Of a stretch of DNA of 64,000 nucleotides, positions 4,647 to 49,753 are shown one piece after another (position 1 is the stretch's first letter; each line of letters opens with the position of its first letter). The stretch is from Pollutibacter soli (lineage in GTDB: Bacteria; Bacteroidota; Bacteroidia; Chitinophagales; Chitinophagaceae). A program made the translations under genes and the position numbers. The notes beneath the pieces were generated by a model. That model ran no database searches. It was not told the origin of the DNA and was given only the letters and a program-made list of their open reading frames with translations. The stretch covers positions 124,001 through 188,000 of the forward strand of contig JARJHS010000009.1 in the NCBI GenBank assembly GCA_029269725.1, written 5' to 3'.

Positions 4647-4662
4647 TTCATGAACTGTACCA
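4647..4662 (-). promoter_or_regulatory. possible sigma-54 (-24/-12) promoter of P2
   Basis: On the minus strand this reads TGGTACAGTTCATGAA. It matches TGGYAC at -24 and has TGA where the consensus has TGC at -12. Taken alone it is weak. It is listed because the same kind of element sits at nearly the same distance from the same palindrome at two other run heads (21140-21155 and 49650-49665). It would start transcription roughly 25-30 nt before the P2 ATG. Confidence 0.4.
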
Positions 4663-4716
4663 ATTTCAGAAAGCCTTACCTGGCAAGGGTTTTGGTGAAG
4701 ATAGCGGGAAATGTTG

Positions 4717-4747
4717 TGTTCGGAAACGGACAGTTTTGTTCGGAACA
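4717..4747. promoter_or_regulatory. palindromic upstream site(s), TGTTCG-GAAA-CGGACA
   Basis: 4717-4732 is TGTTCGGAAACGGACA, a near-perfect copy of TGTCCG-N4-CGGACA with one mismatched pair. A shorter palindrome, TGTTCGGAACA, follows at 4737-4747. The centre of the first is about 76 bp upstream of the -12 position of the P2 promoter candidate. This is the spacing and symmetry expected for an NtrC-type enhancer-binding protein. The region is divergent with the AraC-type gene at 5088, so a role there is possible too. Confidence 0.55.
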
Positions 4748-4921
4748 GGTAGCACGCAGCGGGCAGCAGTGTGGTTGAGTAATCGCTGTAACCGAAAGTG
4801 AAAAAACTGAAAACTGAAACTGAAAACTTGCCAATCGGGCAAGCAGGCTGGCTGTTTCAACGAACAACTGGCTTTTCAAACTGTGCACATGAACTTTGAC
4901 CTGAAAATAATTTGCCTGGAA

Positions 4922-4937
4922 ACAACGCATGCGTTGT
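4922..4937. repeat. 16-bp perfect palindrome, possible decayed copy of the 36879 repeat
   Basis: ACAACGCATGCGTTGT is self-complementary and is followed by CTCTGC. The centre GCATGC and the flanking CTCT resemble the 38-bp palindrome at 36879-36916 (GGCATGCC, then TTGTCTCTAC). It looks like a shorter or decayed member of the same dispersed palindrome family. Confidence 0.45.
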
Positions 4938-5024
4938 CTCTGCTAAATGTTAATTTACCATCAAAAAATCTGAGGGAAACCATTAATGTATTCACTGCTA
5001 TTTATCAGCAACGCCAAAATTTCA

Positions 5025-5080
5025 AACTATGAACTAAGAACTATGAACTAAGAACTAAGAACTAAGAACTATTAACTATC
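5025..5080. repeat. heptanucleotide repeat array, AACTATG/AACTAAG, eight units
   Basis: Eight consecutive 7-mers: AACTATG, AACTAAG, AACTATG, three AACTAAG, AACTATT, AACTATC. It ends eight bases before the ATG of the AraC-type gene. The rest of the 4609-5087 gap holds the P2 regulatory sites and a palindrome, with no convincing gene. Confidence 0.85.
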
Positions 5081-5087
5081 TTTCCCT

Positions 5088-9177: not shown

Positions 9178-9194
9178 TTTTTTAAGATCAGATC

Positions 9195-11786: not shown

Positions 11787-14171
11787 TTACTCGGAACGCA
11801 GGCTCCTCACCGGGTTAATCAGCGCTGCTTTAATGGCCTGGAAACTAACGCTGAGAAGAGTGATCACAACAGCAATCAGGGCGGCAAATCCAAAGATCCA
11901 CCAGCTGATGGTGATGCGATATGCAAATTCCTGCAGCCACTGGTGCGTTGCCCACCAGGCGACCGGGAATGCAATAAGTATGGCGACCAATGAAAGAACT
12001 AAAAAGTCTTTTGATAGCAATCTCACCAGGCTGAATACGGAAGCTCCCATCACCTTGCGAATTCCTATTTCTTTTATGCGTTGTTGTGCTGAATAAGTTG
12101 AAAGGCCGATCAGACCAAGACAAGCCAACAGTATCGCCAGGCCGGAAAATATTTTCAGTACATTTCCAAGTCGGGTTTCAGAGTCGTACATTTTCTGGTA
12201 ATCTTCATCCAGGAAACGATATTCAAAAGGACGATGTGGCGCAATGGTTTTCCATTTTGCCTGTATTGCACCAATGGTTTGTGAGATGTTGGCGCCGTCT
12301 GTTCTGACTAAGAGGCGGCGAGCCCAGTTGCCGGGGAAGAGTACCAACGGTCCGATCGGATTGTGCAATGATTTATAATGGAAGTTTTTAACTACCGCTT
12401 TTATTGTACCATGCCGGGCATCCATGTACAATGGCTTGTTGATGGCCTGTTCAGGAGTATATCCCAACATGGCTGCAGCTTTTTCATTCAGAATAAAATG
12501 ATATGTCGAACTGTCCATGTCTTCATAGTCGATATCCTTCATATCCTGCAATGTGAAATCTGAACCGGCAATAATCTCTAGATCGCTGGTTTTTATGAAA
12601 TCTTCGTCGACGGGATTAGCAGTTACAGCGATATTCTGGTTTTCCCCCATCTCAGGTAAACGCATGGAATATCCTCCCGCAATCTGCACCGGTGTTGATA
12701 CAGTCGCAGATACCGAACGTACACCCGTAACCGATTTCAATTCGGTCTTGATCGCCTGTGCATTTCCTACCATCTTATTGTCCATAGGAAGTACCAGCAC
12801 CTGGTCAAGTTTGTAACCCAGTTTTTTATCTTGAATAAACTTCAATTGATGACTGATGATCAGAGTTGCGGCAATAAGGAAAATGGTAATACTAAACTGA
12901 AAAACTACAAGTGATTTCCTGAGAAATACTCCGGAATTGGTATTCTTGAATTTTCCTTTCAGGACAAGTATAGGTTGAAAGCCGGAAAGGATCAGTGCTG
13001 GATAACTTCCGGCAAACAGGCTGATGGAAAAAACAAATAAGAGGCATACAACTAAAGTTGCTGGTGTAAAGATGGATGAAACAGAAAGAGTCTTACCGGA
13101 CAACTCATTAAATCCGGGCAGCGCGAACGCTACAATCACCACACCAATAATTAAAGCGATGATAGAAAGTGTCGTGGACTCAGCAATGAATTGCCAGAAT
13201 ATCTGGTTCTTCATCGCACCAACAGTTTTCCGGATGCCTACTTCCTTCGCTCTTTCGAGTGAACGCGCTGTTGCGAGATTGATATAGGTAAAGCACGCGA
13301 TTACGAGTATCAGCAACGCAACTGCAATGATGATATAGATATAAGTAATGCTGTTGTTGGGTTCGAACCCGTCATAAGTGGAATGAAGATGAATGGAGTT
13401 AAATGGTTCGAGGGAGAACGTGATATAACTTCCATTTTCCGGCGGCACTTCTGTTTTCATAAAAGTCTGGATTTTTTTCTCCATTGCTTTCATTTCAATG
13501 CCGGGTTTCAACATCAGAAATGTTGTATAGTTCGCGTTGAAATAGTTAGGATGAATGCCTAAACGCAGCGAAGAAAAAGAAGCTATAAAGTCATACTTAA
13601 TCTGAGAATTAGAAGGGCAGTCTTCAGTGATCCCGGTTACCTGGTAGGGTTTACTATCGATATCTACAAGTAATACTTTTCCAACCGGATCCACATCGCC
13701 GAAATATTTTTTCGCCATCGATTTCGTCAGTACAACTTTATCGGGAGCATCAAGGACTGTTGAAGGATCACCTTTCAAAAGCGGGAATGTGAAAATGTTG
13801 AAGAAGGTTGAGTCCGCAAAAACAAACCCTTCTTCCGTAAACACTTTATCGCCATTCTTTACAACACGGGTGGCGTCTGCAAAACGGATGGTGGATTCAA
13901 CTTCAGGGAACTTCTCCTGGAAAGTCGGGGCAACTTTTGTACTCGTAAAATTTCCTCTCACCGGTTCCTGCCCAAAACTGTATTCCATGATCAGCCTTCC
14001 AATCCGGTTTCCATTCTTCTGGAAATTATCATAGTTGAGTTCGTGCTGCACATATAACCCGATCAATAAACAACAGGCAAGACCTGCGCTCAGACCGATG
14101 ATATTGATCGCGGTGAAGAATTTATTCTTTCTCAGACTTCTTGCAGCAATGGTGAGAATGGATTTGAACAT
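11787..14171 (-). CDS. P3: duplicated MacB/FtsX-type ABC permease
   Basis: 794 residues from the ATG at 14171 (MFKSILTIAARSLRKNKFFT). An in-frame ATG at 14264 would add 31 residues unlike any paralogue, so I prefer the shorter form. TM1 lies near 21-41. The TM2 region reads LILVIACFTYINLATARS, replacing the usual CINFMNL with CFTYINL. Loops: ERAKEVGIRKTVGAMK and QRIKEIGIRKVMGAS. The C-terminus is NPVRSLRSE. It is last in the run lipoprotein-P5-P4-P3, 345 nt after P4, and ends head-on towards nrdA. Confidence 0.94.
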   Translation of the reverse strand: MFKSILTIAARSLRKNKFFTAINIIGLSAGLACCLLIGLYVQHELNYDNFQKNGNRIGRLIMEYSFGQEPVRGNFTSTKVAPTFQEKFPEVESTIRFADATRVVKNGDKVFTEEGFVFADSTFFNIFTFPLLKGDPSTVLDAPDKVVLTKSMAKKYFGDVDPVGKVLLVDIDSKPYQVTGITEDCPSNSQIKYDFIASFSSLRLGIHPNYFNANYTTFLMLKPGIEMKAMEKKIQTFMKTEVPPENGSYITFSLEPFNSIHLHSTYDGFEPNNSITYIYIIIAVALLILVIACFTYINLATARSLERAKEVGIRKTVGAMKNQIFWQFIAESTTLSIIALIIGVVIVAFALPGFNELSGKTLSVSSIFTPATLVVCLLFVFSISLFAGSYPALILSGFQPILVLKGKFKNTNSGVFLRKSLVVFQFSITIFLIAATLIISHQLKFIQDKKLGYKLDQVLVLPMDNKMVGNAQAIKTELKSVTGVRSVSATVSTPVQIAGGYSMRLPEMGENQNIAVTANPVDEDFIKTSDLEIIAGSDFTLQDMKDIDYEDMDSSTYHFILNEKAAAMLGYTPEQAINKPLYMDARHGTIKAVVKNFHYKSLHNPIGPLVLFPGNWARRLLVRTDGANISQTIGAIQAKWKTIAPHRPFEYRFLDEDYQKMYDSETRLGNVLKIFSGLAILLACLGLIGLSTYSAQQRIKEIGIRKVMGASVFSLVRLLSKDFLVLSLVAILIAFPVAWWATHQWLQEFAYRITISWWIFGFAALIAVVITLLSVSFQAIKAALINPVRSLRSE

Positions 14172-14516
14172 TTTTTTTGTATTTAGGCAAAAGGCAAAAG
14201 GCAAAAGTAAGGAGGCATAAGGAACAGCCCGGTTTCGCTTGTGTTGGAAGCATTTGCTGTGCATGTTACCTTCGTTTTTACAAATCCCTTGAGTTAAACA
14301 TTTCTAATTTATTTTTTGTAAAGACTGCACAATTTGCCTTGTGCCACAATTCTTTTAACCAGTTGATCCGGGTACAATACAGGCCGGAATAAAGTCAAAC
14401 AACAGAGGAACGGCCGAGATAACAACACACAGAGAAATACATAGGACAAGCGTATTTGTAGTTTCCCCTGTATTCTGTATTCTCTTCTGCCTTCTGCCTC
14501 CTTACTCCTGCCTCTA
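14172..14516. other. 345-nt gap between P4 and P3
   Basis: Contains AGGCAAA repeats beside the P3 start (14183-14205), GGAACAGCCCGG at about 14220, an imperfect GCACAA/TTGTGC inverted repeat at 14328-14345, and a pyrimidine-rich CTTCTGCCTCCTTACTCCTG stretch next to the P4 stop. No gene seen. Confidence 0.6.
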
Positions 14517-16940
14517 TCATTCGCTCCTCAAACTACTCACCGGATTTCTCCACGCCGCTTTTATAGCCTGGAAACTAATTGTTCCCAGGGCGATAAGGCC
14601 TGCAATTATTCCTGCAAGTACAAAAATCCACCACTGAAGGGACGTACGATACGCAAAATCCTGTAGCCAGTTATACATGAAATATCCGGCGACCGGGAAA
14701 GCGATAACCGCTGCTATAGCCACCAGTTTCAGGAAATCTTTTGAAAGCAATGTGACTATCGAAGAAGTGTTCGCTCCAAGTACTTTTCTTACACCAATTT
14801 CTTTTACACGCTGTGTGATAGAAAATGCTGAAAGTCCGAATAAGCCCAGGCATGCAATAAAAATCGCTATGCAGGCGAATATGGTAAATATTTTTCCTTG
14901 TCTTTGTTCTGCCTGGTAAAGATTATTATAATCGTCATTAACAAAATTGAACTGGTATGGAAACTCAGGTGTATACTGAATCCATTTTTTCTCAAGATGA
15001 GCAAGAGCGTCAGGTATATTACCGGTAAGCTTAACCGAAATATAATTATAGCCCGGCCCTGAAGATGCAGGTAACAATAAAATCATCGGAGCGATTTGTT
15101 GATGAAGGGATTCAAAATGGAAGTCCTCCATCACCCCGATTATCTTTCCACGGGTTACGCCGTAGGCAAAATTTTTTCCTATAGCGCTGTTATCATCTTT
15201 CCATCCCAACGCTCTTACAGATGCCTGATTAAGAATAAATGCACTCGTATCTGTACCAAACTCACGCGAGAAATTCCTGCCTGCCGCCATTTTTATTCCA
15301 TAGGTTGGAATGAAATCATAGTCAGCAGCAACATTTTTTAATACCGCAGTAACAGGTACAAGCGAATCTCCAACTATTGCCGATGAGCCTTGTGAATCCA
15401 GCAACCTTCCGGTTGGAATTCTTGACGATCTTCCTGCGTTTTTTATTGCCGGATTCTGCAACAGATCATTTCTGAATGCGTCATAAGTAGTACCCATGGA
15501 ATTTGGATATACCAATGTCACCACCTGGTCCTTATCATAACCAAGTTTTGTTTTCTGCAGAAATTTTAACTGTTGAGCAACAACCAGCGTGGTAATAATG
15601 AGAATAATTGAAATTGAAAATTGTGAAACCACCAGCGCCTTTCTCAAGGAGATATTGCTGCCATCTGTTTTAAACAAGCCTTTCAGGGTTTTCACGGGTT
15701 GGAACGATGAAAGAAAGAGTGCAGGGTAAATCCCCGAAATAATTCCGATAATAAACGGTGCAATTATTAAGCCTGTGATGACTCTGCTATTCAATAAAAC
15801 GCTCCTATCAATTTCCTGGCCCAATAGTTTTCCCATTGATGGTAAAAGAAAGTATACCGCCACCATCGATAATATGATTGCAAGCCATACCATCATTACA
15901 GATTCGGTAAGAAATTGCCCGATCAATGTTTTCTTTCCAGCGCCCACAACTTTACGAATGCCAATTTCTCTCGCACGTAGTGCCGATCTCGCTGTAGACA
16001 AATTCATGTAGTTGATACATGCGATGAGTAATATAAACAATGCTACGGCAGAGAAAATGTATACACGATTGATATCTCCATTGACTTCCGCTTCATAGTC
16101 TGTATGTGAACGCAAATGAATATCAGTAAGTTTCTGAAGCTTTAATTTGGTGAATTTTGAAGGCTTGTTGGTTCCGTACTGATTAACCATCTGTTTATCA
16201 AGGAAAGCAGGGAAACGGGCCTCCATCGTCTCCGGTTTGTAATTTACCGGAAGTTGTATGTAAGTGAAGAATGAATTGTTTCCCCAATTGGTGCGAAGTG
16301 CTTCTTCTCCATAAACATTATCATCTTTCAAAGTATTGAATGAAACAAGCGTTCCCGGATGCAGGTGTGTGTTTGAAGGAAGCGGCTCATAGATGCCCGC
16401 GATCTTTGCATCAAATTGATTGTTCACCCTTACAATCTTATTCATCGGATCTTCATCACCAAAATATTTTCTTGCCGTTTCACTTGTCATCATGATGGCG
16501 AAAGGTTCAGCAAGTGCTGTTTTAGGATTTCCTTTCAACACTTTTACGTTGAACATTTCTGTGAAATTCGAATCGGCGAAATACACATCGTGTTCGGTGA
16601 TCAGTTTTTCTCCGTATTTGAAAACGATATCGCCTGTACTCAGGAGGCGCGTCATTTTTTCAATCTCCGGAAAATCAGATGGCAGGTAATGACCGAATGG
16701 CGGTGATACGGTGGCGAGGTTCAGTGATTGTATTCCTTCGGAATTATTAAAACTCCTCGTCACACGATAGATCCTGTCAGCATTTTCCGGTTTTCGATCA
16801 TAGCTCAGTTCGAAAAGAATATATGCCAGTATCAACAGGCAACAGGTAACACCAGCCGTCAATCCAAACAGATTAATAAACGATATCGCCGGATACTTTA
16901 CCAGGTTGCGCCATGCCAGCTTGAGGTAGTTGATGAGCAT
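14517..16940 (-). CDS. P4: duplicated MacB/FtsX-type ABC permease
   Basis: 807 residues, start MLINYLKLAWRNLVKYPAIS. TM1 is near 17-40, with an unusual TAGVTCCLLILAY core. The TM2 region reads ACINYMNLSTARS. Loops: LRAREIGIRKVVGAGKK and QRVKEIGVRKVLGAN. First extracytoplasmic domain: KYFGDEDPMNK and PLPSNTHLHPGTL. Second: GVMEDFHFESLHQQI. Ends NPVSSLRSE. It lies 178 nt downstream of P5 and 345 nt upstream of P3. The ATG at 16940 follows a GTTTAACGTGATACG stretch, part of the heptad repeats. Confidence 0.95.
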   Translation of the reverse strand: MLINYLKLAWRNLVKYPAISFINLFGLTAGVTCCLLILAYILFELSYDRKPENADRIYRVTRSFNNSEGIQSLNLATVSPPFGHYLPSDFPEIEKMTRLLSTGDIVFKYGEKLITEHDVYFADSNFTEMFNVKVLKGNPKTALAEPFAIMMTSETARKYFGDEDPMNKIVRVNNQFDAKIAGIYEPLPSNTHLHPGTLVSFNTLKDDNVYGEEALRTNWGNNSFFTYIQLPVNYKPETMEARFPAFLDKQMVNQYGTNKPSKFTKLKLQKLTDIHLRSHTDYEAEVNGDINRVYIFSAVALFILLIACINYMNLSTARSALRAREIGIRKVVGAGKKTLIGQFLTESVMMVWLAIILSMVAVYFLLPSMGKLLGQEIDRSVLLNSRVITGLIIAPFIIGIISGIYPALFLSSFQPVKTLKGLFKTDGSNISLRKALVVSQFSISIILIITTLVVAQQLKFLQKTKLGYDKDQVVTLVYPNSMGTTYDAFRNDLLQNPAIKNAGRSSRIPTGRLLDSQGSSAIVGDSLVPVTAVLKNVAADYDFIPTYGIKMAAGRNFSREFGTDTSAFILNQASVRALGWKDDNSAIGKNFAYGVTRGKIIGVMEDFHFESLHQQIAPMILLLPASSGPGYNYISVKLTGNIPDALAHLEKKWIQYTPEFPYQFNFVNDDYNNLYQAEQRQGKIFTIFACIAIFIACLGLFGLSAFSITQRVKEIGVRKVLGANTSSIVTLLSKDFLKLVAIAAVIAFPVAGYFMYNWLQDFAYRTSLQWWIFVLAGIIAGLIALGTISFQAIKAAWRNPVSSLRSE

Positions 16941-19533: not shown

Positions 19534-19773
19534 CTTGTTGTTTTTATGAATGGGCAGAGGGCAAAAGGCAATAGCCAGTATTAGAGTCAAAGGTCAAGAG
19601 TGGTTTAACCTACTCCTGGCCAATTACTAATCTTTTTCCTGAATCATATTACCTGTTGTGCCGTTTTTATACTAAATTTTAAAATTTCAACTTACATAGA
19701 ATCACTTCAACCTTTATTCATTTTTCCTGCACACTCATGAGCTAACGTTCAACTTTAAACGTTAAACTTTCAA

Positions 19774-21139: not shown

Positions 21140-21155
21140 CTCAAGCCTTGTGCCA
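21140..21155 (-). promoter_or_regulatory. sigma-54-like promoter of the lipoprotein-P5-P4-P3 run
   Basis: The minus strand reads TGGCACAAGGCTTGAG. The -24 block TGGCAC is perfect, and the -12 block is TTGA instead of TTGC. It lies about 145 nt before the lipoprotein ATG. A TGTCCG-N4-CGGACG palindrome is centred 73 bp upstream, matching the 74-bp spacing at P14. Confidence 0.6.
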
Positions 21156-21206
21156 TGAATGGAACCGTTGCCTGGCAAGGGTTCCAGCGATTCGCTAAAT
21201 TAAAGG

Positions 21207-21222
21207 TGTCCGAAAACGGACG
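21207..21222. promoter_or_regulatory. palindromic upstream activator-type site
   Basis: TGTCCGAAAACGGACG, with core arms TGTCCG and CGGACG. A half site CGGACA follows at 21229-21234. Same motif as at 49716-49735 and 4717-4732. Confidence 0.65.
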
Positions 21223-21437: not shown

Positions 21438-21441
21438 GTTT

Positions 21442-34008: not shown

Positions 34009-34298
34009 GGTTGTCAGTTATTAGTTGTTAGTTGAACAGCCAGTTTTTAGTTTATATGTGTTTGTTCATAGGAGGCAGCGGGCAGCAGGCAGGAGATCTG
34101 TGCGATAATCATCTGCAAAATGGCGTCAGGTTTTATTTTTAACTAACTTCATTTTTAAACCGCCACTTTGCTGATTTTCGGCATTTGGCTTCAGATGTTT
34201 GGTGATTAAAATTATCTGTTCCCTGCTGCTTCAAACAAAAAACAGAATCAGACAACAGAAAAAGTTTTCCAATCTCAGTGGCTGGCTGTTCCTACTTA

Positions 34299-36737: not shown

Positions 36738-36775
36738 GGTGGGAGTTTAAAGTGGAAAGTTAAAAATTGAAAGAA

Positions 36776-36806
36776 GTTCATAGTTCATAGTTCATAGTTC
36801 TTAGTT
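36776..36806. repeat. heptad repeats, TTCATAG type
   Basis: On the minus strand the units read AACTAAG, AACTATG, AACTATG, AACTATG, the same words as the array at 5025-5080. They are followed on the plus strand by GGAACAGCCG. Confidence 0.85.
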
Positions 36807-36878
36807 GGAACAGCCGAAGAAAGTTCACCGTACACGGTTCATTGTGACAGTGGGTTCAGAATTGGAAGAGTCGGCTGT

Positions 36879-36916
36879 TTTTTGTAGAGACAAGGCATGC
36901 CTTGTCTCTACAAAAA
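36879..36916. repeat. 38-bp perfect palindrome, TTGTAGAGACAAGG core
   Basis: Nineteen-base arms meet at GGCATGCC with no loop; the arms contain GTAGAGACAAGG and CCTTGTCTCTAC. TAGAGAC palindromes of this sort are known as dispersed repeats in other bacteria, including cyanobacteria (recalled, not searched). It sits in the P10-P9 gap, immediately before GCCGGCTGTTCC at 36941. Confidence 0.92.
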
Positions 36917-36958
36917 CAGTAAATATTATGAGTCGCAGACGCCGGCTGTTCCTCCTGC

Positions 36959-39373: not shown

Positions 39374-39394
39374 GAGTTGTCAGTTAGTTTATAG

Positions 39395-39431
39395 CCTGCC
39401 TGCCCTGCCTACCGGACAGGCGGCAGGCAGG
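39395..39431. repeat. GC-rich inverted repeat in the P11-P10 gap
   Basis: Outer arms CCTGCCTGCC (39395-39404) and GGCAGGCAGG (39422-39431) are perfectly complementary; the interior, CTGCCTACCGGACAGGC, can partly pair as well. Similar CCTGCC/GGCAGG hairpins lie at 7804-7822 and near 7630 and 31610. Confidence 0.8.
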
Positions 39432-39517
39432 TTCTTTGTTCATAGTTCTTAGTTTGATCAGCCGGTTCACGGTTTCTACTTCCTCTAGGTCTTGCGTTCA
39501 ACGTTAAACGTTCAGCC

Positions 39518-41974
39518 TTATTCCGTTCGCAGACTCTTCACCGGATTCGCCATCGCGGCCTTAATCGCCTGGAAGCTGATCGTAAACAGCGCAACAAAAA
39601 CTGCAGCAATTGCTGCCACAATGAAAATCGAGATACTGAGATGTGTACGGTATTCGAAATTGTTCAGCCAGCTGCTCATCATCCACCAGGCCACAGGAAA
39701 AGCGATCAGTGTAGCGATCAGTACCAGCTTCAGAAAATCTGCTGACAGCATCGTTACTATATTTCCAACATTTGCACCCAGGACTTTCCTCACACTGATT
39801 TCGCGTGTGCGCTGCTGTGTGGCATAGGCAGCAAGACCCAGCAGTCCAATGCAAGCGATGAAAATGGCCAGCAATGAGAACACCGTGAAAATCTTCTGCA
39901 TGATCTGTTCTGAACGATACTGCTTCGCCAGGGTCTGATCTAGAAAATCATAAGAGAAAGGCCTGTCTTTAACGAACTGCTGCCATGTTTTTTCCACCTG
40001 CGCAATCGACCTTGAAAAATCTGCTGCTTTAATTTTCACTGCTATTACCGGTGAGGCCTGACCGAAGCGAATGGCATTATTAAAGATGAGCGGATTGATT
40101 TTTTGATGCAGCGACTGGTAGTGAAAATCCTTGATTACACCGATGATGGTGTATTCAATTTTGCTGCCGTCGGGTCTGTTCAGGAAATCTTCCGGTGTAG
40201 TAACCTTTGTGCCTACAGGATTTGTTAAGCCGAGATCGTGTACCGCTTTTTCATTCAATACAACTGCGAAACTGTCGGTGGTAAAAGAAGGATTGAAAAA
40301 TCGACCTTCTTTTAATTCAAGTCCAAGCAGAGAAGCATAATCTTCATCAGTGAAACTAGCGCGACCCGTTACTGTTTTGTCGGTTCCTGGTACATCATAA
40401 CTGATTCCAAAATAGTTCTGCTGGCCGGGAAGAGAAGTAGTTCTCGTAGCATTTTCAACACCGGAAATTCTCTTTAAAGAAGTTTTGAATGCATTGGTTT
40501 GATCACCAAGCGAACCGGTGTTGTTGATGACAACAATATGATCTTTCTGGAAGCCGAGCTGATCGCCCATCACGTATTTCATCTGCCTGTTTACAACGAT
40601 GGTGCAAACGATCAATACAACAGAGATTGCAAACTGGAAAACAACTAATCCGTTACGTAGCCAACGTCCCTGCAGGTTGGATCGAAACCTGCCTTTAAGA
40701 ACCATGATCGGTTTAAATGAAGAAAGAATGAATGCAGGATAGATGCCTGCAATAATTCCGATCAATATTGAAGATACAATGATCAATGACAATTGTGATG
40801 GCTCAAGAAAATACCGGATGGTCAGTTCCTTTCCTGAAAGTTGATTGAACAGCGGAAGAAGTGCTGCAATGAGAAAAATTGAAACTAAGATACTGATCAG
40901 GCTTATCACCACAGATTCCAGCAGAAACTGTGCGATGAGGTATTTTCGTTCGGAACCAAATGTTTTTCTTAGTCCGACTTCTCTTGCTCTTTCCACTGAT
41001 CTCGCCGTCGACAAATTGATGAAGTTAATACATGCCAGGGCAAGAATAAATACGGCGATGATACTGAAAATGGTAACTCCTTTCCGACTACCATTGACTC
41101 CAAGTTCACTTTCCAGGTCTGAATCGAGATGGATTGAATACAATGGTTGCAGATAATAGTAATATCCGTTTCCTGCTTTCTCGAACTGTTCAAGGCTCAT
41201 TCCAAATCCCTTCTCCACTCCTCCAGCCACATATTTTTTTACGATAGATGGAAATCCTGCTTCCAGTTTTTTCGGAGATGCATCAGGATTCAACAAAAAA
41301 TACGTTGCAGCGGCAAAATTGATATAGTTGTCTTCACGAAGGAAAGGCTGGGCCGTAGAAGACAACAGCATATTAAAACGGAAGTGGTTATTTGCCGGCC
41401 AGTCTGCACAAACCGCTGTGATTTGAAAGACATTATCTTCAGGTGCATCTGTCAGAAATGTTTTTCCGATAGCGTCAGCAGGGGATCCAAACAATCTTTC
41501 AGCAGTAGATTTATTCAATACCACCGAATGTGGTTTATCAAGCGGAGTTTTTACATCGCCGGCGATGATATCAGAACTGAATACTTGGAAGAAGTTTGAG
41601 TCAGCCATGACCACACTCTTTTCTTCCCACGTTTTATCACCGATTTTTATATAGAAGCCACCATCATCTCCGGTGAAATCAAAAACACGAACCATTTCTT
41701 TCACTTCCGGAAATTCAGACTTTACAGCTTTTCCGATGGAAGGAGGAATTATTGCATAGGAGTTGGTTCGCCCCGGGTATTTCCGATCGAGAACCATTCT
41801 ATAGATATGATCTCCTCTTTTATGATAAGTATCAAAGTTGAGTTCGCTTTTTACGAAAAGCACTATCAGCAGACATACCGCCATTCCCGATGCAAGACCA
41901 AGAATATTGATCAGCGTAAATCCTTTTTTTCTTGAAAGGTTTCTGAATGCGATTTTGAGATAGTTTTTGATCAT
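39518..41974 (-). CDS. P11: duplicated MacB/FtsX-type ABC permease
   Basis: 818 residues, start MIKNYLKIAFRNLSRKKGFT. TM1 core GLASGMAVCLLIVLFVKSEL. First domain: RLFGSPADAIGK and CADWPANNHFRFNMLL. TM2 region: LALACINFINLSTARS. Loops: ERAREVGLRKTFGSER and QRTREISVRKVLGAN, another KEIG-to-REIS variant like P6. Second domain: GVIKDFHYQSLHQKI. Ends NPVKSLRTE. The gap to P12 upstream is only 69 nt and consists wholly of heptads. Confidence 0.95.
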   Translation of the reverse strand: MIKNYLKIAFRNLSRKKGFTLINILGLASGMAVCLLIVLFVKSELNFDTYHKRGDHIYRMVLDRKYPGRTNSYAIIPPSIGKAVKSEFPEVKEMVRVFDFTGDDGGFYIKIGDKTWEEKSVVMADSNFFQVFSSDIIAGDVKTPLDKPHSVVLNKSTAERLFGSPADAIGKTFLTDAPEDNVFQITAVCADWPANNHFRFNMLLSSTAQPFLREDNYINFAAATYFLLNPDASPKKLEAGFPSIVKKYVAGGVEKGFGMSLEQFEKAGNGYYYYLQPLYSIHLDSDLESELGVNGSRKGVTIFSIIAVFILALACINFINLSTARSVERAREVGLRKTFGSERKYLIAQFLLESVVISLISILVSIFLIAALLPLFNQLSGKELTIRYFLEPSQLSLIIVSSILIGIIAGIYPAFILSSFKPIMVLKGRFRSNLQGRWLRNGLVVFQFAISVVLIVCTIVVNRQMKYVMGDQLGFQKDHIVVINNTGSLGDQTNAFKTSLKRISGVENATRTTSLPGQQNYFGISYDVPGTDKTVTGRASFTDEDYASLLGLELKEGRFFNPSFTTDSFAVVLNEKAVHDLGLTNPVGTKVTTPEDFLNRPDGSKIEYTIIGVIKDFHYQSLHQKINPLIFNNAIRFGQASPVIAVKIKAADFSRSIAQVEKTWQQFVKDRPFSYDFLDQTLAKQYRSEQIMQKIFTVFSLLAIFIACIGLLGLAAYATQQRTREISVRKVLGANVGNIVTMLSADFLKLVLIATLIAFPVAWWMMSSWLNNFEYRTHLSISIFIVAAIAAVFVALFTISFQAIKAAMANPVKSLRTE

Positions 41975-42043
41975 AGTTTTCTGTTAGTTGATCGTTGATC
42001 GTTCATCGTTGTTCGTTCAACGTTCAACGGTTAACGTTGAACG
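41975..42043. repeat. whole P12-P11 gap is a heptad array (about ten units)
   Basis: The 69 bases can be cut into 7-mers without loss of register: AGTTTTC, TGTTAGT, TGATCGT, TGATCGT, TCATCGT, TGTTCGT, TCAACGT, TCAACGG, TTAACGT, TGAACGT. The array runs from the P11 ATG to the P12 stop codon. Copies near the P12 stop are the most regular. Confidence 0.9.
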
Positions 42044-44440
42044 TTACTCCGTCCGGAGTGATTTCACAGGGTTTGCCAGTGCAGCCTTTATCGCCTGGAA
42101 GGAAACTGTCAAAAGTGTAATAACCATCGAGCCGACAGCAGCAACGACAAATACCCACCATGAAATACCTACACGATAATCGTATTTCAGGAGCCAGCCA
42201 TGCAAATAGTAATACGCAAGCGGCGCTGCGATTACGCAGGAGATGCCCACGAGTATCACAAAATCTTTCGACAACAATGCTGATAAATTAAATACGGATG
42301 CGCCCACTATTTTCCTTATACCAATTTCTTTAGTGCGCTGTTCCGCCACAAAGGAAGCCAGACCAAAAAGGCCCAGACAACTGATGATGATTGCAAGAAC
42401 TGTAAAGAAGGCAGCCAGCTTACCGATGCGAACCTCATCAGAGAATTTTTTTCCATACTCCAGGTCAGCAAAACGATAATCGAATGGTGCAGCAGGGATT
42501 ACCTGTTTGAATACTTTTTCAGTTATGGCAAGAGATTCCGATGTGCTTTTTTGTGGATTTAGCTTCAGATTAATAACACTTACATTATTATTGGTCAGGA
42601 TATACACTGCCTGTTTAACCGGCTCATAAGGTGAGCTCATTACCATATCTTTCACAACACCAACAATCGTAAAAACATCCGCATCCGGACCATTTCCCCA
42701 TCGCACTATTTTACCTACAGGATCTTTGATGTTCATAAATTTTACTGCTGCTTCGTTGATCAATAGTGAAGCACTGTCACCCTTGAACTCCCGGGAAAAA
42801 TCACGCCCTTCCTTAACTTCAAAACCTACTGTTTTGCCATATTCGGCAGTTACCCAGATAGTGGCAAAGTCGGCGGTGAGATCAGGGTCTTTCCCTTCCC
42901 AGTTAAAACCTCCGTTGTTACTCCAGACATTCGTAACCGGACTGGACGATTCCGCCATTTCAACGATGGCATTCTGCTTTTTAAGTTCGGTCCTCAGTAT
43001 ATCATATTTACCGTAGAAGTCCGGTGTTTGCATATATATCGTTACAAGATTATTTCTGTCATAACCTACAGGGCGATTTTTAGTATGCTGAATCTGCTGA
43101 TAAACTATAATTGTACTGATGATGAGTGCAACCGATACTGAAAACTGGGTAACCACCAGTACTTTTCTTGGTAGGGCTGCAAGTTTCCCTGCCTTGAATG
43201 TTCCTTTGAGAACTTTGACGGGTTGAAAAGAGGAAAGATAGAATGCGGGATAACTACCGGCAATTATTCCTGTAATAAATGAGAAACCCAGGCCTGCTAA
43301 CCAGAACCATTTGTTATCCCATAATATTTTCATTTGTTTGTCCGCCACCTGGTTAAACCATGGCAATGCGAGTTGTGTCAGTAAAACAGAAAAGACGAAA
43401 GCGATAAAGGCAACCATCAGGGATTCGCAAAGAAACTGACCGATCAGTTGTGTACGGAATGAACCTACCGTTTTCCGGATACCTACTTCTTTCGCCCTTT
43501 TTTCAGAACGCGCAGTGCTCAGGTTCATAAAGTTGATGCATGCCAGTAGTAAAACAAACACGCCAATAATTGCAAACATCCATACGTACTCAATTTGCCC
43601 ACCCGTTTGTATGCCTTCTTTCCAGGCAGACCGCAGGTGCCACTCCTTCATCGGATGCAGGAAAATGGTTGCTTTGAATTTTTTATCTTCCTCATCTACT
43701 TTGTTCAGCTTTGATTTTTCGATGCTCCTGTTGACGGCTGCAAAATTTGTGTTGTCATTAATCTGGGCAAAACACTGGAATGAATTATTGTCCCATTGTG
43801 TTGCGGCGCGGGACAGCCAGTCTTCGGAGGTTTTATATAAGTCCCAGGGTGCAATAAATTTGAGTTCACGAAAAGTTGTACTGTAGGGTAGATCTTCAAA
43901 TACACCTGTAACTTTTACATTGAGCTTGTTATCTATCTTCATGGATTGATTCAACGGATCCGCGTCTCCAAAAAATGCTTTAGCTGTACTTTCTGAAATT
44001 AAGATGTTGTTAGGTTCGGAAAGACCGTTCCGACTGCCTTTCAACATTTTTAAAGAAAGGATGAAGGGACCATCTTTATCTATGTAGATTCCGTTTTTGT
44101 ACAAATGTTTGTCATCCTTGCTGAGCATATGATCACCCTGCCAGGAAGCCATTGCGATATACTTAAAATTATTGCCATAGCTGTTTCGCAATTCTTCGCC
44201 CATAGGAAATGGCAACGCCTGCTGCGTATAAATATGGCCATTGGAAGTTTGTTGCTGATATACCTGGGCTACGTGCTCAGCGTTAGAATGATACCGGTCA
44301 AAGGTTATTTCGTCCCATATCCATAAGCCTATCAATGTAGCTACCGCCATACCAATAGCCAGTCCACCAATGTTAATCATGGAGGATTTTCTGTTCTTTA
44401 ATAAATTACGCCAGGCGATTTTAAGATAGTTTTTGATCAT
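42044..44440 (-). CDS. P12: duplicated MacB/FtsX-type ABC permease
   Basis: 798 residues, start MIKNYLKIAWRNLLKNRKSS. TM1 core GLAIGMAVATLIGLWIWDEI. First domain: AFFGDADPLNQ and FEDLPYSTTFRELKFI, with a GGQIEYVWMFAIIGVF lead into TM2. Loops: KRAKEVGIRKTVGSFR and QRTKEIGIRKIVGAS. Second domain: GVVKDMVMSSPYEPV, replacing KDFHFxSLH; P17 has the same change (GVCKDLVMQSVYEPV). Ends NPVKSLRTE. Clearly a sister of P17. Confidence 0.95.
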   Translation of the reverse strand: MIKNYLKIAWRNLLKNRKSSMINIGGLAIGMAVATLIGLWIWDEITFDRYHSNAEHVAQVYQQQTSNGHIYTQQALPFPMGEELRNSYGNNFKYIAMASWQGDHMLSKDDKHLYKNGIYIDKDGPFILSLKMLKGSRNGLSEPNNILISESTAKAFFGDADPLNQSMKIDNKLNVKVTGVFEDLPYSTTFRELKFIAPWDLYKTSEDWLSRAATQWDNNSFQCFAQINDNTNFAAVNRSIEKSKLNKVDEEDKKFKATIFLHPMKEWHLRSAWKEGIQTGGQIEYVWMFAIIGVFVLLLACINFMNLSTARSEKRAKEVGIRKTVGSFRTQLIGQFLCESLMVAFIAFVFSVLLTQLALPWFNQVADKQMKILWDNKWFWLAGLGFSFITGIIAGSYPAFYLSSFQPVKVLKGTFKAGKLAALPRKVLVVTQFSVSVALIISTIIVYQQIQHTKNRPVGYDRNNLVTIYMQTPDFYGKYDILRTELKKQNAIVEMAESSSPVTNVWSNNGGFNWEGKDPDLTADFATIWVTAEYGKTVGFEVKEGRDFSREFKGDSASLLINEAAVKFMNIKDPVGKIVRWGNGPDADVFTIVGVVKDMVMSSPYEPVKQAVYILTNNNVSVINLKLNPQKSTSESLAITEKVFKQVIPAAPFDYRFADLEYGKKFSDEVRIGKLAAFFTVLAIIISCLGLFGLASFVAEQRTKEIGIRKIVGASVFNLSALLSKDFVILVGISCVIAAPLAYYYLHGWLLKYDYRVGISWWVFVVAAVGSMVITLLTVSFQAIKAALANPVKSLRTE

Positions 44441-44509
44441 AGTTGTCAGTTAGTTGATCGTTCAACGTTTAACGTTTAACGTTGAACGTTGAACCTTGAA
44501 CGTTGAACG
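44441..44509. repeat. whole P13-P12 gap is a heptad array (about ten units)
   Basis: Again 69 bases: AGTTGTC, AGTTAGT, TGATCGT, TCAACGT, TTAACGT, TTAACGT, TGAACGT, TGAACCT, TGAACGT, TGAACGT, then T. It has the same length and register as the P12-P11 gap, and the first three units are closely related to it. Confidence 0.92.
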
Positions 44510-46903
44510 TTACTCCGTCCGCAAACTCTTCACCGGGTTCGCCGAAGCTGCCCTGAGCGAACGATAGCCTACGGTAACTGTTGCAATCACTATAGTTACT
44601 CCTATGGCCATCAGGAATATCCCTGGCCCTATATGAGTACGATATGTAAATTCTTTCAGGTAATTGTTCATTACCCACCAGGCTAACGGCGCAGCCACAA
44701 CGAAAGCAACCAGGAGCAAACGGGCGAACTCTTTTCCAAAGATCCAGAGGATATTACCCATTCCTGCACCGAGAACTTTGCGTACACCAATTTCTTTGGT
44801 TTTCCGGACGGCCATGAAGGATACAAGCCCATACAATCCAAGGCAACCGATAACAATGGCTATCAGGGAAAATGCGCGGATGAGATTATACATCACGGTG
44901 TCCATGCGATAGAATCTTTCTATTCTTTCATCAAGGAATTCCCTTGAAAAGAGATAATCGGGATATGCACTGTTCCACAATTTTTCTATTGCTGCAAGGG
45001 ATGACTGCATAGAATTCGCATTCAGTTTTACAGCGAGATTGCTGTAGCTGTCATTATTCGGCATGATACAGATCGCTGCGATCTCACTGCGGAAGGAATA
45101 ATTGTAAAAGTCTTTTACCACACCTACGATGGGTGCTTTTATGTTATCCCCATTCACTGCAATCATTTTTCCCAATACCTGGTCAGGATCGGTGATGTTG
45201 AGTTTTTTTACAAACGTTTCGTTAACTAAAAATTCTTTTGTTGTATCTGAAGGGAAGAAGTTACGACCGGCAACAAGCGGAATATCAAAGGTGGAAAGAT
45301 ATTTATCGTCTGCCTGCTTCATATTGATAGACCAGTGTTCGGTTTCAGCTCGATTATCGTAACGAACTCCCGTGTTGCTATTGGAACCGGAAGCTGGTGC
45401 CTGGTAGCATAGTGTTGTTTTTTCTACACCCGGGATTTTTGCAATTTCATTTTTTAACGTCTGCTTGGTAATGAAATTATTTCCCGGCATGGGCAACATC
45501 ACAATCGCATCCTTGCTGAATCCCAGGTCCGTTGATTTTGAATAATTCATCTGCGCAGCTATGACTATGGTACCGATAATCAGCAATTGAGAGATGGCAA
45601 ATTGTGTTACTACCAGCACGCGGCGCAGTGAAAATCCGCCGATACTTTTTTGCGATAGCTTGCTTTTCAGTGCAGTGATCGGAGCAAATCTTGCGAGAAC
45701 AAGTCCAGGATAGGAGCCGGATAAAAAAATGATAAATAATGTAGTCAATAAAAGGAACAGCGGAACCTTATAGCTGCTGAAAAATTCCAGGCTCATATTG
45801 GACTCCAGTAATGTGTTCAATGGTGGCAGTCCAAGTTTTGCAACGCCATAGGCGATGAATACAGCAATCATACTGATGATGGCGGTTTCTGTAATGAATT
45901 GCCAGAATAGTTGTGATTTCATACTTCCCAGAACTTTGCGTACGCCGATTTCTTTTGCACGATTCAATGCCTGGGCAGTAGCGAGGTTAATAAAGTTCAC
46001 ACATGCAGTGATGATCAGGAAAATACCGATGATGGAGAGTGCCCAGAGATAATTTTTATCGGCGGCGCCATCCAGGTCCTGGTTGAAATGAATATCCGCA
46101 AGGGGCTGTACAACAAAATTCCATTCCTTCTGATCTCTGCCTTCATAATTTTTGTTAACGATCAGTTTTAATCCTTTATCTACCTGCGCTTTGTTGATAT
46201 TTGGTTTCAGTTTGGTATAGGCCTGTGACCCGCTGTATACACCGCCCCAGCTGCTATCGCTGGCGAGCCACCTGTTTTCATCTTTCAGGTTATCATAGGA
46301 AAGATATATCTCCTGCCGACGATCAGAATTGCCAGGAATATTTTTGAGAATTCCCTTGATGGTGAAATTGGTATTGTTATTCACCTTGATGACTTTCCCG
46401 ATCGGATCTTCGGTTCCGTAATATTTCTTCGCGATGTTCTCTGTAATCAGCGCTTCGTTTGGATTGCTAAGCAGCCTGGCTTTATCGGATCTTAAAACAG
46501 GGTAGTTGAATATTTCGAAGTATTCCGGCTCCGTATAAACAACACCATCTTCTTCAATGAATTTCCGGTTCTGTGGATCGTTCTGTAATGAAACAAGCCT
46601 GTTGCGATAATGAACAACGCGCGCTGTTTTTTCTGCAAAATCAAATTCGTTACGAAATGCTTTGCCCAGCGGCTGTGGTACAGCAGGAGAATAGTTCGTT
46701 GTTTCCCCAGTCCATTTAGAAGTTAAACGATAGATGCGATCACTGTCATTGTGAAACTGATCGAAGTTGAGATGAAAACTGACGATAGTAAATATCAAAA
46801 TACTACAGGCAAGACCCATGGCCAATCCGATAACATTGATTGTCGTATACGATTTGTGCTTCCTGAGGTTTCTCCACGCTACTTTGAAATAGTTCCTGAT
46901 CAT
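44510..46903 (-). CDS. P13: duplicated MacB/FtsX-type ABC permease
   Basis: 797 residues, start MIRNYFKVAWRNLRKHKSYT. TM1 core GLAMGLACSILIFTIVSFHL. First domain: KYYGTEDPIGK and LKNIPGNSDRRQEIYL. TM2 region: ACVNFINLATAQA, with STAR changed to ATAQ. Loops: NRAKEIGVRKVLGSMK and RKTKEIGVRKVLGAG. Second domain: GVVKDFYNYSFRSEI, which lacks the common FHFxSLH. Ends NPVKSLRTE. The leader has CTTATAACCTAC about 25 nt before the ATG, shared with P15 and P16. Confidence 0.95.
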   Translation of the reverse strand: MIRNYFKVAWRNLRKHKSYTTINVIGLAMGLACSILIFTIVSFHLNFDQFHNDSDRIYRLTSKWTGETTNYSPAVPQPLGKAFRNEFDFAEKTARVVHYRNRLVSLQNDPQNRKFIEEDGVVYTEPEYFEIFNYPVLRSDKARLLSNPNEALITENIAKKYYGTEDPIGKVIKVNNNTNFTIKGILKNIPGNSDRRQEIYLSYDNLKDENRWLASDSSWGGVYSGSQAYTKLKPNINKAQVDKGLKLIVNKNYEGRDQKEWNFVVQPLADIHFNQDLDGAADKNYLWALSIIGIFLIITACVNFINLATAQALNRAKEIGVRKVLGSMKSQLFWQFITETAIISMIAVFIAYGVAKLGLPPLNTLLESNMSLEFFSSYKVPLFLLLTTLFIIFLSGSYPGLVLARFAPITALKSKLSQKSIGGFSLRRVLVVTQFAISQLLIIGTIVIAAQMNYSKSTDLGFSKDAIVMLPMPGNNFITKQTLKNEIAKIPGVEKTTLCYQAPASGSNSNTGVRYDNRAETEHWSINMKQADDKYLSTFDIPLVAGRNFFPSDTTKEFLVNETFVKKLNITDPDQVLGKMIAVNGDNIKAPIVGVVKDFYNYSFRSEIAAICIMPNNDSYSNLAVKLNANSMQSSLAAIEKLWNSAYPDYLFSREFLDERIERFYRMDTVMYNLIRAFSLIAIVIGCLGLYGLVSFMAVRKTKEIGVRKVLGAGMGNILWIFGKEFARLLLVAFVVAAPLAWWVMNNYLKEFTYRTHIGPGIFLMAIGVTIVIATVTVGYRSLRAASANPVKSLRTE

Positions 46904-47221
46904 GATAAGTAATATGTTGTAGGTTATAAGTGTTAAGTTAAACGTTTGCGTCTAGTGCTTAACGTTAGGATTCGTTAGTTTGTGAATTATTTACAATATG
47001 TTTTATAGTTCATTGCTTGTTGTTTGGGACAGCCGGTTCACCGTTGTTCGTTCATTGTTTTTCGTTGTTCGTTTGGAGCTGCAGCTTTTTTATTTTTTTA
47101 TGTATGTAAGAATTGATCCTGCCTTCCTGAATTATCCGCAGTTCACTATTATGTTTGATACTTAAAACAATCTGTTGCCTGGCTGTTCCCTTTTGCCTGT
47201 TGCCTACTTACTATTGCCTGA
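46904..47221. other. 318-nt gap between P14 and P13
   Basis: Heptad-like GTTAAGTTAAACG near 46935, TTAACGTTAGG near 46958, CCGTTGTTCGTTCATTG with TTGTTCG units at 47041-47075, and GGCTGTTCCC at 47181-47190 close to the P14 stop. No gene seen. Confidence 0.6.
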
Positions 47222-49603
47222 TTATTCAGCCCGCAACGAATTCACGGGATTCGCATTCGCCGCCCTGATACAATGCCATGCAATCGTTGCTGCTGCAACA
47301 AGCAACGTAGCAATTGCAGAAATAGCAAATACACTCCATTGCACATCCGTTTGATATTTGAACGACTCCAGCCATTTATGAGTGGCATACCATGCGATGG
47401 GCCAGGATACAAGATTCCCGATCAGTACCAGGATGAAAAAATCTTTTGACAGCAATTTTACCAATCGTGCATTGCCAGCTCCAATCACTTTCCTGATCCC
47501 GATTTCTTTGGTTCGTGTTTCCGTTGAATGTGCAGCGAGTCCGAAAAGTCCAAGGCAGGATATGAAAATGGCGAGTCCTGCAAAAATTTTCATAACCTCA
47601 CTGATCTGGTCTTCCTTCTTATATAATCCTGAAATTTTTTCATCCAGAAACCCATAACGGAAAAGTGTACCCGGGGCGAGTGCATTGATTTTTTGCTGAA
47701 TGAAGGGTATCGCTGCTGCGGTCTGGCCAGCCGCAATTTTGATCATGAGATTATCGCCCCAAGTAGGTCTGTATTCCAGCACCAGTGGCTCGATCTGATT
47801 ATGTAACGATTGAAAATGAAAATCTTTTATTACGCCCACTACAGTTCCCTGCAGATTCATAGTCTGGTTATTGATGCGCGATCCGATCGGATTTTTTAAA
47901 CCCATCAATGCAGCTGCTTTTTCATTGATGATAAAACTGGCTGAATCATTATAGTCTTTAGAAAAATTGCGACCTGCCGCGAGCTTAACCTTCATTACAT
48001 CAAGGTAATTTTCATCTATTCTGAACACACGTACGGAAGGAAAATTATCACCCACAACAGAATCCACCGGTACTACACTTTCCACACTGAGATCATCGCC
48101 GATCAGGTTGGAAGATTGGCCGATGGCTAATATTCCCGGTCCGGAAAGCAATTCTTTTTTTACAGTTTCCGGCTGCTTTACCAGTTTATTTTTCAGTTCA
48201 CCGTAGGATTTTACCACGAGTACCTGGTCTTTGTCAAAGCCCAATTGTTTATTGTGAAAGAGGGTCAGCTGCTGATAGATCACAACTGTGCTTATGATCA
48301 GAAATGCCGCCATCGTAAACTGAAAAACGACAAGACTTTTCCTTACGTATCCTGCGCCGGAGCCGGGTAATCTCAATCCTTTGAGTGATGATGACGGATC
48401 AAATTTTGTTACGAAGAGTGCAGGAAAAATACCCGAAATAAGACCTGTACCCAGGATGATCAAAAAGAAGATCAGCATATTTCCTGGCTGGAAAACATCA
48501 GTAGCCGGTACTTGTTTACCGGTTAAACTGTTGTACACTGGCAATGTGGCCTGGTAAATTACTATGGCCAATAGTCCGGCGATAAGAGTCAGTAATAGTG
48601 CTTCCCCGAGAAACTGAACGATCAATTGCTTTTTCTGTGCGCCGAGTATTTTACGAACTGCAACTTCACGAAGTCTTTTCATTGATTGTGTTGTGAAAAG
48701 ATTAATAAAGTTGACACAGGCAATCAACAGAATTAATATTTCAACAGCGATAAGAATATAGATGTACACATCACTGCTGTTGGGTCCCATTTCCTGGATG
48801 AGGTTTGATTTCAGGTGGATATCTGTCAGCGCCTGAAATTTATTACTGGCTGCTTCTGCTGCAAGTCCGGTAGTATCTGCGTTTCCACCGCGATAAATTT
48901 TCCAGAATTCGTTGAATTTTGCTCTCGCCTGGTTGACGCCGGATTCATTTTTGAATTTTACATAGGTCCAGCCAAACATCCAACCGCGATTATTCAACCA
49001 GTTGGGTGGGACAAATGAATTGAATGTCGTCATCGAAAGCAGGTAGTCGAACTTCAAATGACTGTTGGCTGGAATATCTTCAATAACAGCGCGAACAAAT
49101 TTTTTATCTTCTGCATTGACGATGATTTCTTTCCCGATCGGATCTTCTTTGCCAAACAGTTTTTCGGCCATATTTCTGCCAAGCACTACGCTATTCATTT
49201 CACTCAGTGCTTTGACCGGATCGCCAACGACCGGTTTTAATCCAAACACTGCGATTACAGACGAATCGGCCCAGTAACCTTTCGCTTCCATTTTTTTTTC
49301 AGGACCGACATTTACTACAGGTGATCCCGCATCAGCAAGGCGGGCAGTAGATGCTATTTCCGGAAAAAACTTTTGCATCTCGCCCGCAAGCGGTGGGTTC
49401 GATTTGGACCATTCGGTGGTCACCATACGAAAGATCCGCTCGTGTCCGGGAACGAATTTTTCATAACTCATTTCTTCTTTGATGTGCATGGACAATAGCA
49501 GCCCGCAAGCGATCCCGAGGGCAAGTCCGGTCAGGTTGAGAATACTGTACGTTTTCTGTCGGAATATGCTTCGTAATGCCGTCCGGAAGAAGTTTTTGAG
49601 CAT
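47222..49603 (-). CDS. P14: duplicated MacB/FtsX-type ABC permease, head of the nine-gene run P14-P6
   Basis: 793 residues, start MLKNFFRTALRSIFRQKTYS. TM1 core GLALGIACGLLLSMHIKEEM. First domain: KLFGKEDPIGK and IEDIPANSHLKFDYLL. TM2 region: ACVNFINLFTTQS, the most altered of this block. Loops: KRLREVAVRKILGAQKK, with REVA for KEVG, and TRTKEIGIRKVIGAG. Second domain: GVIKDFHFQSLHNQI. Ends NPVNSLRAE. It is first in the longest run, preceded by a good -24/-12 promoter (49650-49665) and two palindromic sites. Confidence 0.95.
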   Translation of the reverse strand: MLKNFFRTALRSIFRQKTYSILNLTGLALGIACGLLLSMHIKEEMSYEKFVPGHERIFRMVTTEWSKSNPPLAGEMQKFFPEIASTARLADAGSPVVNVGPEKKMEAKGYWADSSVIAVFGLKPVVGDPVKALSEMNSVVLGRNMAEKLFGKEDPIGKEIIVNAEDKKFVRAVIEDIPANSHLKFDYLLSMTTFNSFVPPNWLNNRGWMFGWTYVKFKNESGVNQARAKFNEFWKIYRGGNADTTGLAAEAASNKFQALTDIHLKSNLIQEMGPNSSDVYIYILIAVEILILLIACVNFINLFTTQSMKRLREVAVRKILGAQKKQLIVQFLGEALLLTLIAGLLAIVIYQATLPVYNSLTGKQVPATDVFQPGNMLIFFLIILGTGLISGIFPALFVTKFDPSSSLKGLRLPGSGAGYVRKSLVVFQFTMAAFLIISTVVIYQQLTLFHNKQLGFDKDQVLVVKSYGELKNKLVKQPETVKKELLSGPGILAIGQSSNLIGDDLSVESVVPVDSVVGDNFPSVRVFRIDENYLDVMKVKLAAGRNFSKDYNDSASFIINEKAAALMGLKNPIGSRINNQTMNLQGTVVGVIKDFHFQSLHNQIEPLVLEYRPTWGDNLMIKIAAGQTAAAIPFIQQKINALAPGTLFRYGFLDEKISGLYKKEDQISEVMKIFAGLAIFISCLGLFGLAAHSTETRTKEIGIRKVIGAGNARLVKLLSKDFFILVLIGNLVSWPIAWYATHKWLESFKYQTDVQWSVFAISAIATLLVAAATIAWHCIRAANANPVNSLRAE

Positions 49604-49649
49604 AGCAGCCTGGTTTTGTCGAAATGGCGAAATATGGTCCGAAAGATTG

Positions 49650-49665
49650 AGCGGAAACAGTGCCA
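49650..49665 (-). promoter_or_regulatory. sigma-54 promoter (-24/-12) of P14
   Basis: The minus strand reads TGGCACTGTTTCCGCT. GG and GC are exactly ten bases apart as required, and the -24 block TGGCAC is perfect. The -12 block is CCGC rather than TTGC. Transcription would begin near 49639, giving a leader of about 36 nt before the P14 ATG. Two palindromic sites lie 74 and 95 bp upstream of the GC. Confidence 0.7.
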
Positions 49666-49715
49666 GACTTAGAATTCAATACCAGAGCGGGTTTCGGGAG
49701 TTGTGACCTGTTCGT

Positions 49716-49735
49716 ACTGTCCGAAAACGGACAGT
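49716..49735. promoter_or_regulatory. palindromic upstream activator-type site, perfect
   Basis: ACTGTCCGAAAACGGACAGT, 8-bp perfect arms around AAAA. Centre 74 bp upstream of the -12 GC of the P14 promoter. Best copy of the motif in the window. Confidence 0.7.
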
Positions 49736-49738
49736 CAG

Positions 49739-49753
49739 TGTCCGATTACGGCA
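49739..49753. promoter_or_regulatory. second, imperfect copy of the palindromic site
   Basis: TGTCCGATTACGGCA. Its centre lies 21 bp from the first site, close to two helical turns, so two protein dimers could sit on the same face of the DNA. Confidence 0.55.

Follow-up and report, generated by a model that had tools for sequence, protein, structure and literature searches.

In a 64,000-nucleotide window of contig C37 (JARJHS010000009.1) of Pollutibacter soli, three promoter modules were identified among MacB-like permease genes, each combining the palindrome TGTCCG-N4-CGGACA with a -24/-12 block at a nearly constant distance. Each module is probably a sigma-54-type promoter with one or two predicted enhancer sites for a single NtrC-family regulator, designated P0001, which is encoded on contig C2 of the same genome (C35 and C5, mentioned below, are further contigs of it). 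What stands beyond chance is the combination of palindrome and promoter, together with its recurrence elsewhere, and not either part singly.

The promoter module and its recurrence

A first-pass annotation of this DNA had placed palindromes at 4717, 21207 and 49716. The first two positions were found to be exact (one mismatch each), while the third palindrome, which has no mismatches, begins at 49718. A second copy in module 3 (49739, two mismatches, 21 base pairs (bp) from 49718) had gone unmentioned; in module 1 a degenerate second copy, read by eye, likewise begins 21 bp away at 4738, and module 2 possesses a half-site alone as its second copy, at another spacing. The TGG(C/T)AC-N5 blocks at 4647, 21140 and 49650 are present as described, the distance of 73-76 bp from palindrome centre to -12 agrees with the coordinates of all three modules, and each module stands upstream of a minus-strand gene run. 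The parts of the modules are as follows.

4647..4662, minus strand: -24/-12 block of module 1, TGGTAC-N5-ATGA, 70 bp from the palindrome start
4670..4693, strand unassigned: conserved spacer element of module 1, an imperfect inverted repeat AAACCCTT..AAGGCTTT
4717..4732, minus strand: proximal predicted activator site of module 1 (palindrome scan)
4738..4753, minus strand: degenerate distal site of module 1 (by eye; tandem spacing as in relatives)
21140..21155, minus strand: -24/-12 block of module 2, TGGCAC-N5-TTGA
21161..21185, strand unassigned: spacer element of module 2
21207..21222, minus strand: proximal predicted activator site of module 2 (palindrome scan)
49650..49665, minus strand: -24/-12 block of module 3, TGGCAC-N5-CCGC, a rare form
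49681..49698, strand unassigned: degenerate spacer element of module 3
49718..49733, minus strand: proximal predicted activator site of module 3, a perfect palindrome
49739..49754, minus strand: distal site of module 3, 21 bp from the proximal site

Scanning of the window with up to two mismatches gave four palindrome matches, and at least four were reached by 6 of 100 shuffles, so that the palindrome by itself is weakly beyond chance there. The annotation had named a genome-wide motif search as its own check, and the outcome was divided: the composite module was above chance, while the palindrome alone (one mismatch) was found at 10 places against 10 for the reversed control and was rejected as a regulon marker. 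The -24/-12 pattern alone was also at chance level, with 51 found and 58 expected. None of the seven genomic palindromes outside the window was followed at 66-72 bp by NGGYAY-N7-G, both directions having been checked. A two-mismatch scan of 144 kb of C37 revealed two further matches with the same layout, C37:119588 and C37:190828, both outside the window, and no further palindrome in the internal permease gaps of the window, in agreement with the annotation, which had not seen the module there. Two-mismatch matches at C2:136325, C35:21426 and C5:78920 had no such promoter block within 120 bp.

On the transcribed strand the five C37 modules follow one order: palindrome (with spacer TTTY), spacer element and TGGYAY, the last beginning 67-70 bp after the palindrome start in all five. 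Their spacer element resembles AAACCCTTGCCAGG and is degenerate at C37:173718 and C37:190828. Inverted repeats resembling repetitive extragenic palindromic sequences (ACCTGCCAGGTCTTAGACCTGGCAGGT type) were also observed at about 21248-21440 of the window, with a similar block upstream of the module at C37:190828.

Searching 149 genomes for the palindrome alone brought up 28 places in relatives, 27 of them with a locus and one without. TGGYAY was found unasked 67-69 bp downstream in 10 of these 27 loci, with an eleventh reading CGGCAT and one more carrying TGGCAT at 88 bp; 14 of the 27, judged by N-termini, lie before a permease, an ATPase or an SDYEK lipoprotein. The four loci of this search from the same taxonomic order (L063-L066) had no module. 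A composite search was made in 394 Chitinophagaceae genomes using half of the palindrome and the -24 block at a distance of 66-71 bp, leaving the left arm and the -12 bases unasked. Matches were obtained in 72 genomes, compared to approximately 28 matches for the reversed control; 99 places were counted, which collapsed to 98 distinct sequences.

The left arm was present in 80 of these 98. Among the 80 arm-bearing modules, 79 have G at -12 (GG-N10-G spacing) and 77 have T two positions ahead of it, neither having been asked for, and at least one half-site of a second copy was found 20-22 bp further up in 70, using a loose pattern. TGG at -24 was imposed by this search, and the palindrome to -24 distance of 66-71 bp in all 80 was partly set by its window. 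The arm-bearing modules precede a permease (64), an ATPase (nine), a lipoprotein (one) or a gene of another kind or nothing identifiable (six), which places a MacB-like permease or its ATPase downstream of 73 of the 80. Armless sequences had TG at -12 in 2 of 18, with a permease or adaptor downstream in 2 of 18.

The permeases are paralogous and the five C37 modules have similar spacer elements, so that the shared blocks could be thought mere leftovers of upstream sequence duplicated together with the permease genes. This is scarcely credible, since a lipoprotein and an ATPase gene, neither encoding a permease, also carry the module, and since nothing in the consensus of the 80 modules is prominent except the sites, an A/T pattern in the spacer and the bases of the -24/-12 block.

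A class-wide sample gave a composite match in 18 of 296 genomes. Arm-bearing modules were found in the P. soli genome itself and in members of two further families: f86, where three precede permeases and one precedes HlyD, and f59 (locus L118), where one precedes a permease and lacks the -12 G; the remaining matches were without the left arm. A module-like promoter with a palindrome 68 bp upstream was also seen before a gene for a DUF2807 (head GIN domain) protein (L329 in genome G476, 1500-2318), and targets besides permeases may therefore exist.

P0001 as candidate activator

P0001 is an NtrC-type response regulator of 452 amino acids (C2:9159-10514) with receiver, Sigma54_activat and Fis-type helix-turn-helix domains. 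Its gene lies with that of a histidine kinase at the start of C2, and genes for a HlyD/MacA-like adaptor, a MacB-like ATPase and permeases run divergently from them. The orientation of the genes gave rise to the conjecture that C2 may be the immediate continuation of C37. A partial rpoN open reading frame (ORF) was also found in the genome. The best 80 relatives of P0001 listed share 66-79% identity and include proteins of Niastella, Mucilaginibacter, Pedobacter, Pontibacter and Rufibacter. In 20 mapped module regions of relatives, modules lie inside permease arrays, several of which end in ATPase1-TolC, and two of these regions (L135 and L145) have HlyD-ATPase2-permeases transcribed away from genes for an NtrC-type regulator and a kinase.

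A HlyD-type gene was identified within 1.5 kb upstream of the regulator at 54 loci (53 of the 80 named loci and that of P0001 itself). TGTA(T/C)C sites were found 68-70 or 90-92 bp before TGGCAY at 47 of these 54, loci without sites being counted as misses, and 18 loci have both. The half-site CGNACA, the 68/90 bp geometry and the tandem spacing of 21-22 bp are common to these sites and to the permease modules. An earlier reading, in which a strict module adjoins the regulator gene, held for 11 of the 80 named loci and was replaced by that of the TGTATC-type sites. P0001-like regulators were present in 52 of 57 genomes with an arm-bearing module, compared to 133 of 337 others (Fisher p ~5e-14). 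Fifty-seven genomes were used rather than 58, one of two sharing an identical module having been dropped, and the calculation was made for P0001-like regulators, one of ten strong Sigma54_activat regulators. The layout of an NtrC-type activator with RNA polymerase-sigma-54, which the annotation had proposed, is supported by the conservation of the module, the domains of P0001, the partial rpoN ORF and these related sites of the same geometry.

Several results weigh against P0001 as activator of sigma-54-type promoters. The regulator occurs without a strict module match in 133 genomes (one of which is the dropped duplicate) and went undetected in five genomes with a module, and differences in genome size may be a confounder. 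Beside P0001 the site reads TGTATC..CGNACA, which differs from the permease palindrome. In the HlyD promoters, compared at 44 of the 47 site-bearing loci (the other three being too short), a G at the expected -12 base was found in one sequence, and 17 of the 44 have it one base nearer; the HlyD promoter of P. soli has G at neither. In 76 of the 80 modules the -12 G is not followed by the textbook C. Furthermore, the loop of P0001 reads GAFTDA and not GAFTGA, and single changes in GAFTGA, above all of F and T, reduce or abolish activity according to passages of PMC3162934.

The same loop change is usual in this group, GA(F/Y)TDA being found in 71 and GSFTGA in 3 of the 74 evaluable loops among 81 P0001-like regulators. 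Working regulators with loops of this kind are described from Desulfovibrio (PMC4641369), and NorR G266D, which carries the same substitution as the loop of P0001, is reported in passages of PMC2941729 still to form open complexes.

The difference between the two kinds of site and the other -12 arrangement of the HlyD promoter would also suit true sigma-54 enhancer promoters bound by another of the ten strong NtrC-type regulators of the genome (10 of its 14 Sigma54_activat matches are strong). This is unlikely in view of the half-site, geometry and tandem spacing that the P0001-side sites share with the modules, the conserved neighbourhood of P0001 and the co-occurrence with the module, calculated for its relatives.

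Eight loci from Pontibacter and Rufibacter (L213, L219, L220, L234, L238, L244, L247 and L252) were also observed to carry TGTGCG-N4-CG(C/T)AC 69-70 bp before TGGCAYAAT, this palindrome and block standing upstream of the regulator gene. TGGCAYAAT can be read as a housekeeping promoter as well as in terms of sigma-54 autoregulation.

Gene runs behind the modules

MacB_PCD matches, of which there are 101 in the genome at approximately two per permease gene, place the window within a longer permease array of C37. The gene runs behind its modules are as follows.

2245..4608, minus strand: P2, MacB_PCD/FtsX permease, first gene behind module 1
19774..20994, minus strand: lipoprotein with SDYDK repeats, first gene behind module 2
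17119..19590, minus strand: P5 permease, next after the lipoprotein
14517..16940, minus strand: P4 permease, MacB_PCD match
11787..14264, minus strand: P3 permease, MacB_PCD match
47222..49603, minus strand: P14 permease, first gene behind module 3
24857..46903, minus strand: eight more permease genes, P13 to P6, with an insertion sequence (IS)-like pair at 30077-31281 between two of them

The claim that the permease runs form one regulon was supported, and the regulon would extend beyond the three runs, to the two further C37 modules and to apparent orthologues of the lipoprotein (L057) and of P14 (L072) in a congener, which also carry the module. The SDYDK lipoprotein was without a Pfam match above cut-off. 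The IS-like pair (HTH_Tnp_1 and rve integrase) lies on the plus strand, opposite to the P14-P6 run that contains it, and P14-P6 is therefore possibly not one transcript.

Two regulator genes of the window lie close enough to raise the question of whether the palindrome is instead their operator, with TGGYAC coincidental. An AraC-family gene (5088-5882) is divergent from P2 and adjoins module 1, and a histidine kinase and LytTR response regulator pair (22960-24708, plus strand; the LytTR gene at 23989-24708) sits inside the permease array. A local operator of either kind is very unlikely, as no AraC-like ORF and only one weakly LytTR-like ORF (32% over 81 amino acids) were found in the 20 module regions of relatives, covering up to 20 kb each, and as this reading would offer no explanation for the spacing of 67-70 bp or for the G at -12, present in 79 of 80 modules.

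Other genes of the window include those for both ribonucleotide reductase subunits (8176-11588, plus strand), situated between permease runs, and one for a protein of 1705 amino acids (50703-55820, plus strand) with CotH, LTD, malectin and PKD domains and a secretion-system sorting tail.

The -12 word, the proposed mechanism and known systems

Two of the three -12 blocks end in GA, which the annotation had taken as a weakness of those promoter calls. This did not hold, as GA was found to be the usual form in relatives: the base after the -12 G in the 80 modules is A in 50, G in 21, T in five and C in four, and TTGA is the commonest tetramer (47 of 80). P14 does conform to GG-N10-GC as the annotation stated, yet its C is a rare exception, and its apparent orthologue reads AGGG.

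In 21 genomes, TTGGCAYRNNNNTTGCA was rarer than its reversed control (3 compared to 14) and TTGGCAYRNNNNTTGAA commoner (28 compared to 18). Four genomes (L323, L324, L327 and L340) also carry TTGGCAYRNNNNTTGAA with no palindrome, 25-48 bp ahead of the predicted starts of exported proteins that look alike by their N-termini; these are perhaps a second sigma-54 target with TTGA. It is conceivable, at the level of a tentative suggestion from these sequence counts, that TTGC has given way to TTGA as the -12 word of the Chitinophagaceae sigma-54 promoter itself, both here and in other regulons. The small numbers weigh against so general a shift, as do the 8 of the 28 TTGGCAYRNNNNTTGAA places that lie inside long ORFs and the three that are permease-type modules with a palindrome. 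A bolder form, in which the GAFTDA loop of P0001 is matched to TTGA, is weaker, because the other nine regulators of the genome carry other loops (GAFTGA in three, GSFTGA in four, GSYTGA in one and GSFTSA in one). Searches for sigma-54 promoters that are built on GC at -12 would tend to miss the TTGA form.

With P0001 as activator, a signal, perhaps envelope stress, would activate the kinase, and the phosphorylated regulator would bind approximately 68 and 90 bp upstream of the -24 box, at tandem sites about two helical turns apart. The bound regulator would then assemble its ATPase ring and open the RNA polymerase-sigma-54 complex at TGGCAY-N5-TTGA, resulting in the joint switching on of the permease runs, the permease-ATPase-TolC operon at C37:114733-119334 and the SDYDK lipoprotein. 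In this scheme the sequence, geometry, conservation, gene context and co-occurrence are as observed, and binding, phosphorylation, sigma-54 dependence and signal are predicted from them. The near-constant distance between site and promoter is tighter than expected for a looping enhancer and, being maintained over Chitinophagaceae, is suggestive of a phase-locked contact. Bending of the DNA is a possible role of the spacer element, which is no clean IHF site. An RNA or DNA hairpin was rejected as an explanation for it, since complementarity within sequences only slightly exceeded that between sequences (6 of 200 max-permutations reached it) and is further weakened by relatedness.

P0001 resembles the NtrC/AtoC/ZraR-type response regulators in its receiver, Sigma54_activat and Fis helix-turn-helix domains, and those systems likewise combine upstream sites, often in tandem, with a -24/-12 promoter; unlike them, it has a GAFTDA loop and nearly fixed 68/90 bp spacing. 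It scored below the cut-off of every NCBIfam model among the matches listed (25 of 90). The system appears, judging by its sequences, to work like an NtrC/sigma-54 regulon in which the textbook GC at -12 and GAFTGA loop, both looked for, do not apply. Three permeases tested match the ADOP duplicated permease model (TIGR03434) over nearly its full length at 308-330 bits, below its curated cut-off of 622 bits. Components of the darobactin exporter DarBCD were the top-listed curated matches for both ATPases (DarD) and the adaptor (DarC) and second for the permeases (DarB), all below cut-off, and the adaptor passes the general RND_mfp model alone.

The nearest published finding is a 2025 survey, passages of which report sigma-54 promoters predicted and enriched before COG0577 permeases (ATP-binding cassette antimicrobial-peptide/FtsX-like) in Bacteroidia and call this permease-family finding first evidence (PMC12316311). 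Gene class, phylum and inferred sigma factor are alike in the two cases, and for the COG0577 group those passages name neither an activator nor its enhancer site, and neither the geometry nor the TTGA form. As the survey is described there, regulators with GAFTGA alone were kept, and P0001, with its GAFTDA loop, would be dropped by that filter. Literature searches found no paper naming a regulator, site or TTGA form for the MacB-like permeases of these bacteria.

With a named candidate activator, a site and a geometry, the function of the expanded MacB-like permeases becomes testable, and the permease modules offer a clean case of drift in the sigma-54 -12 element.

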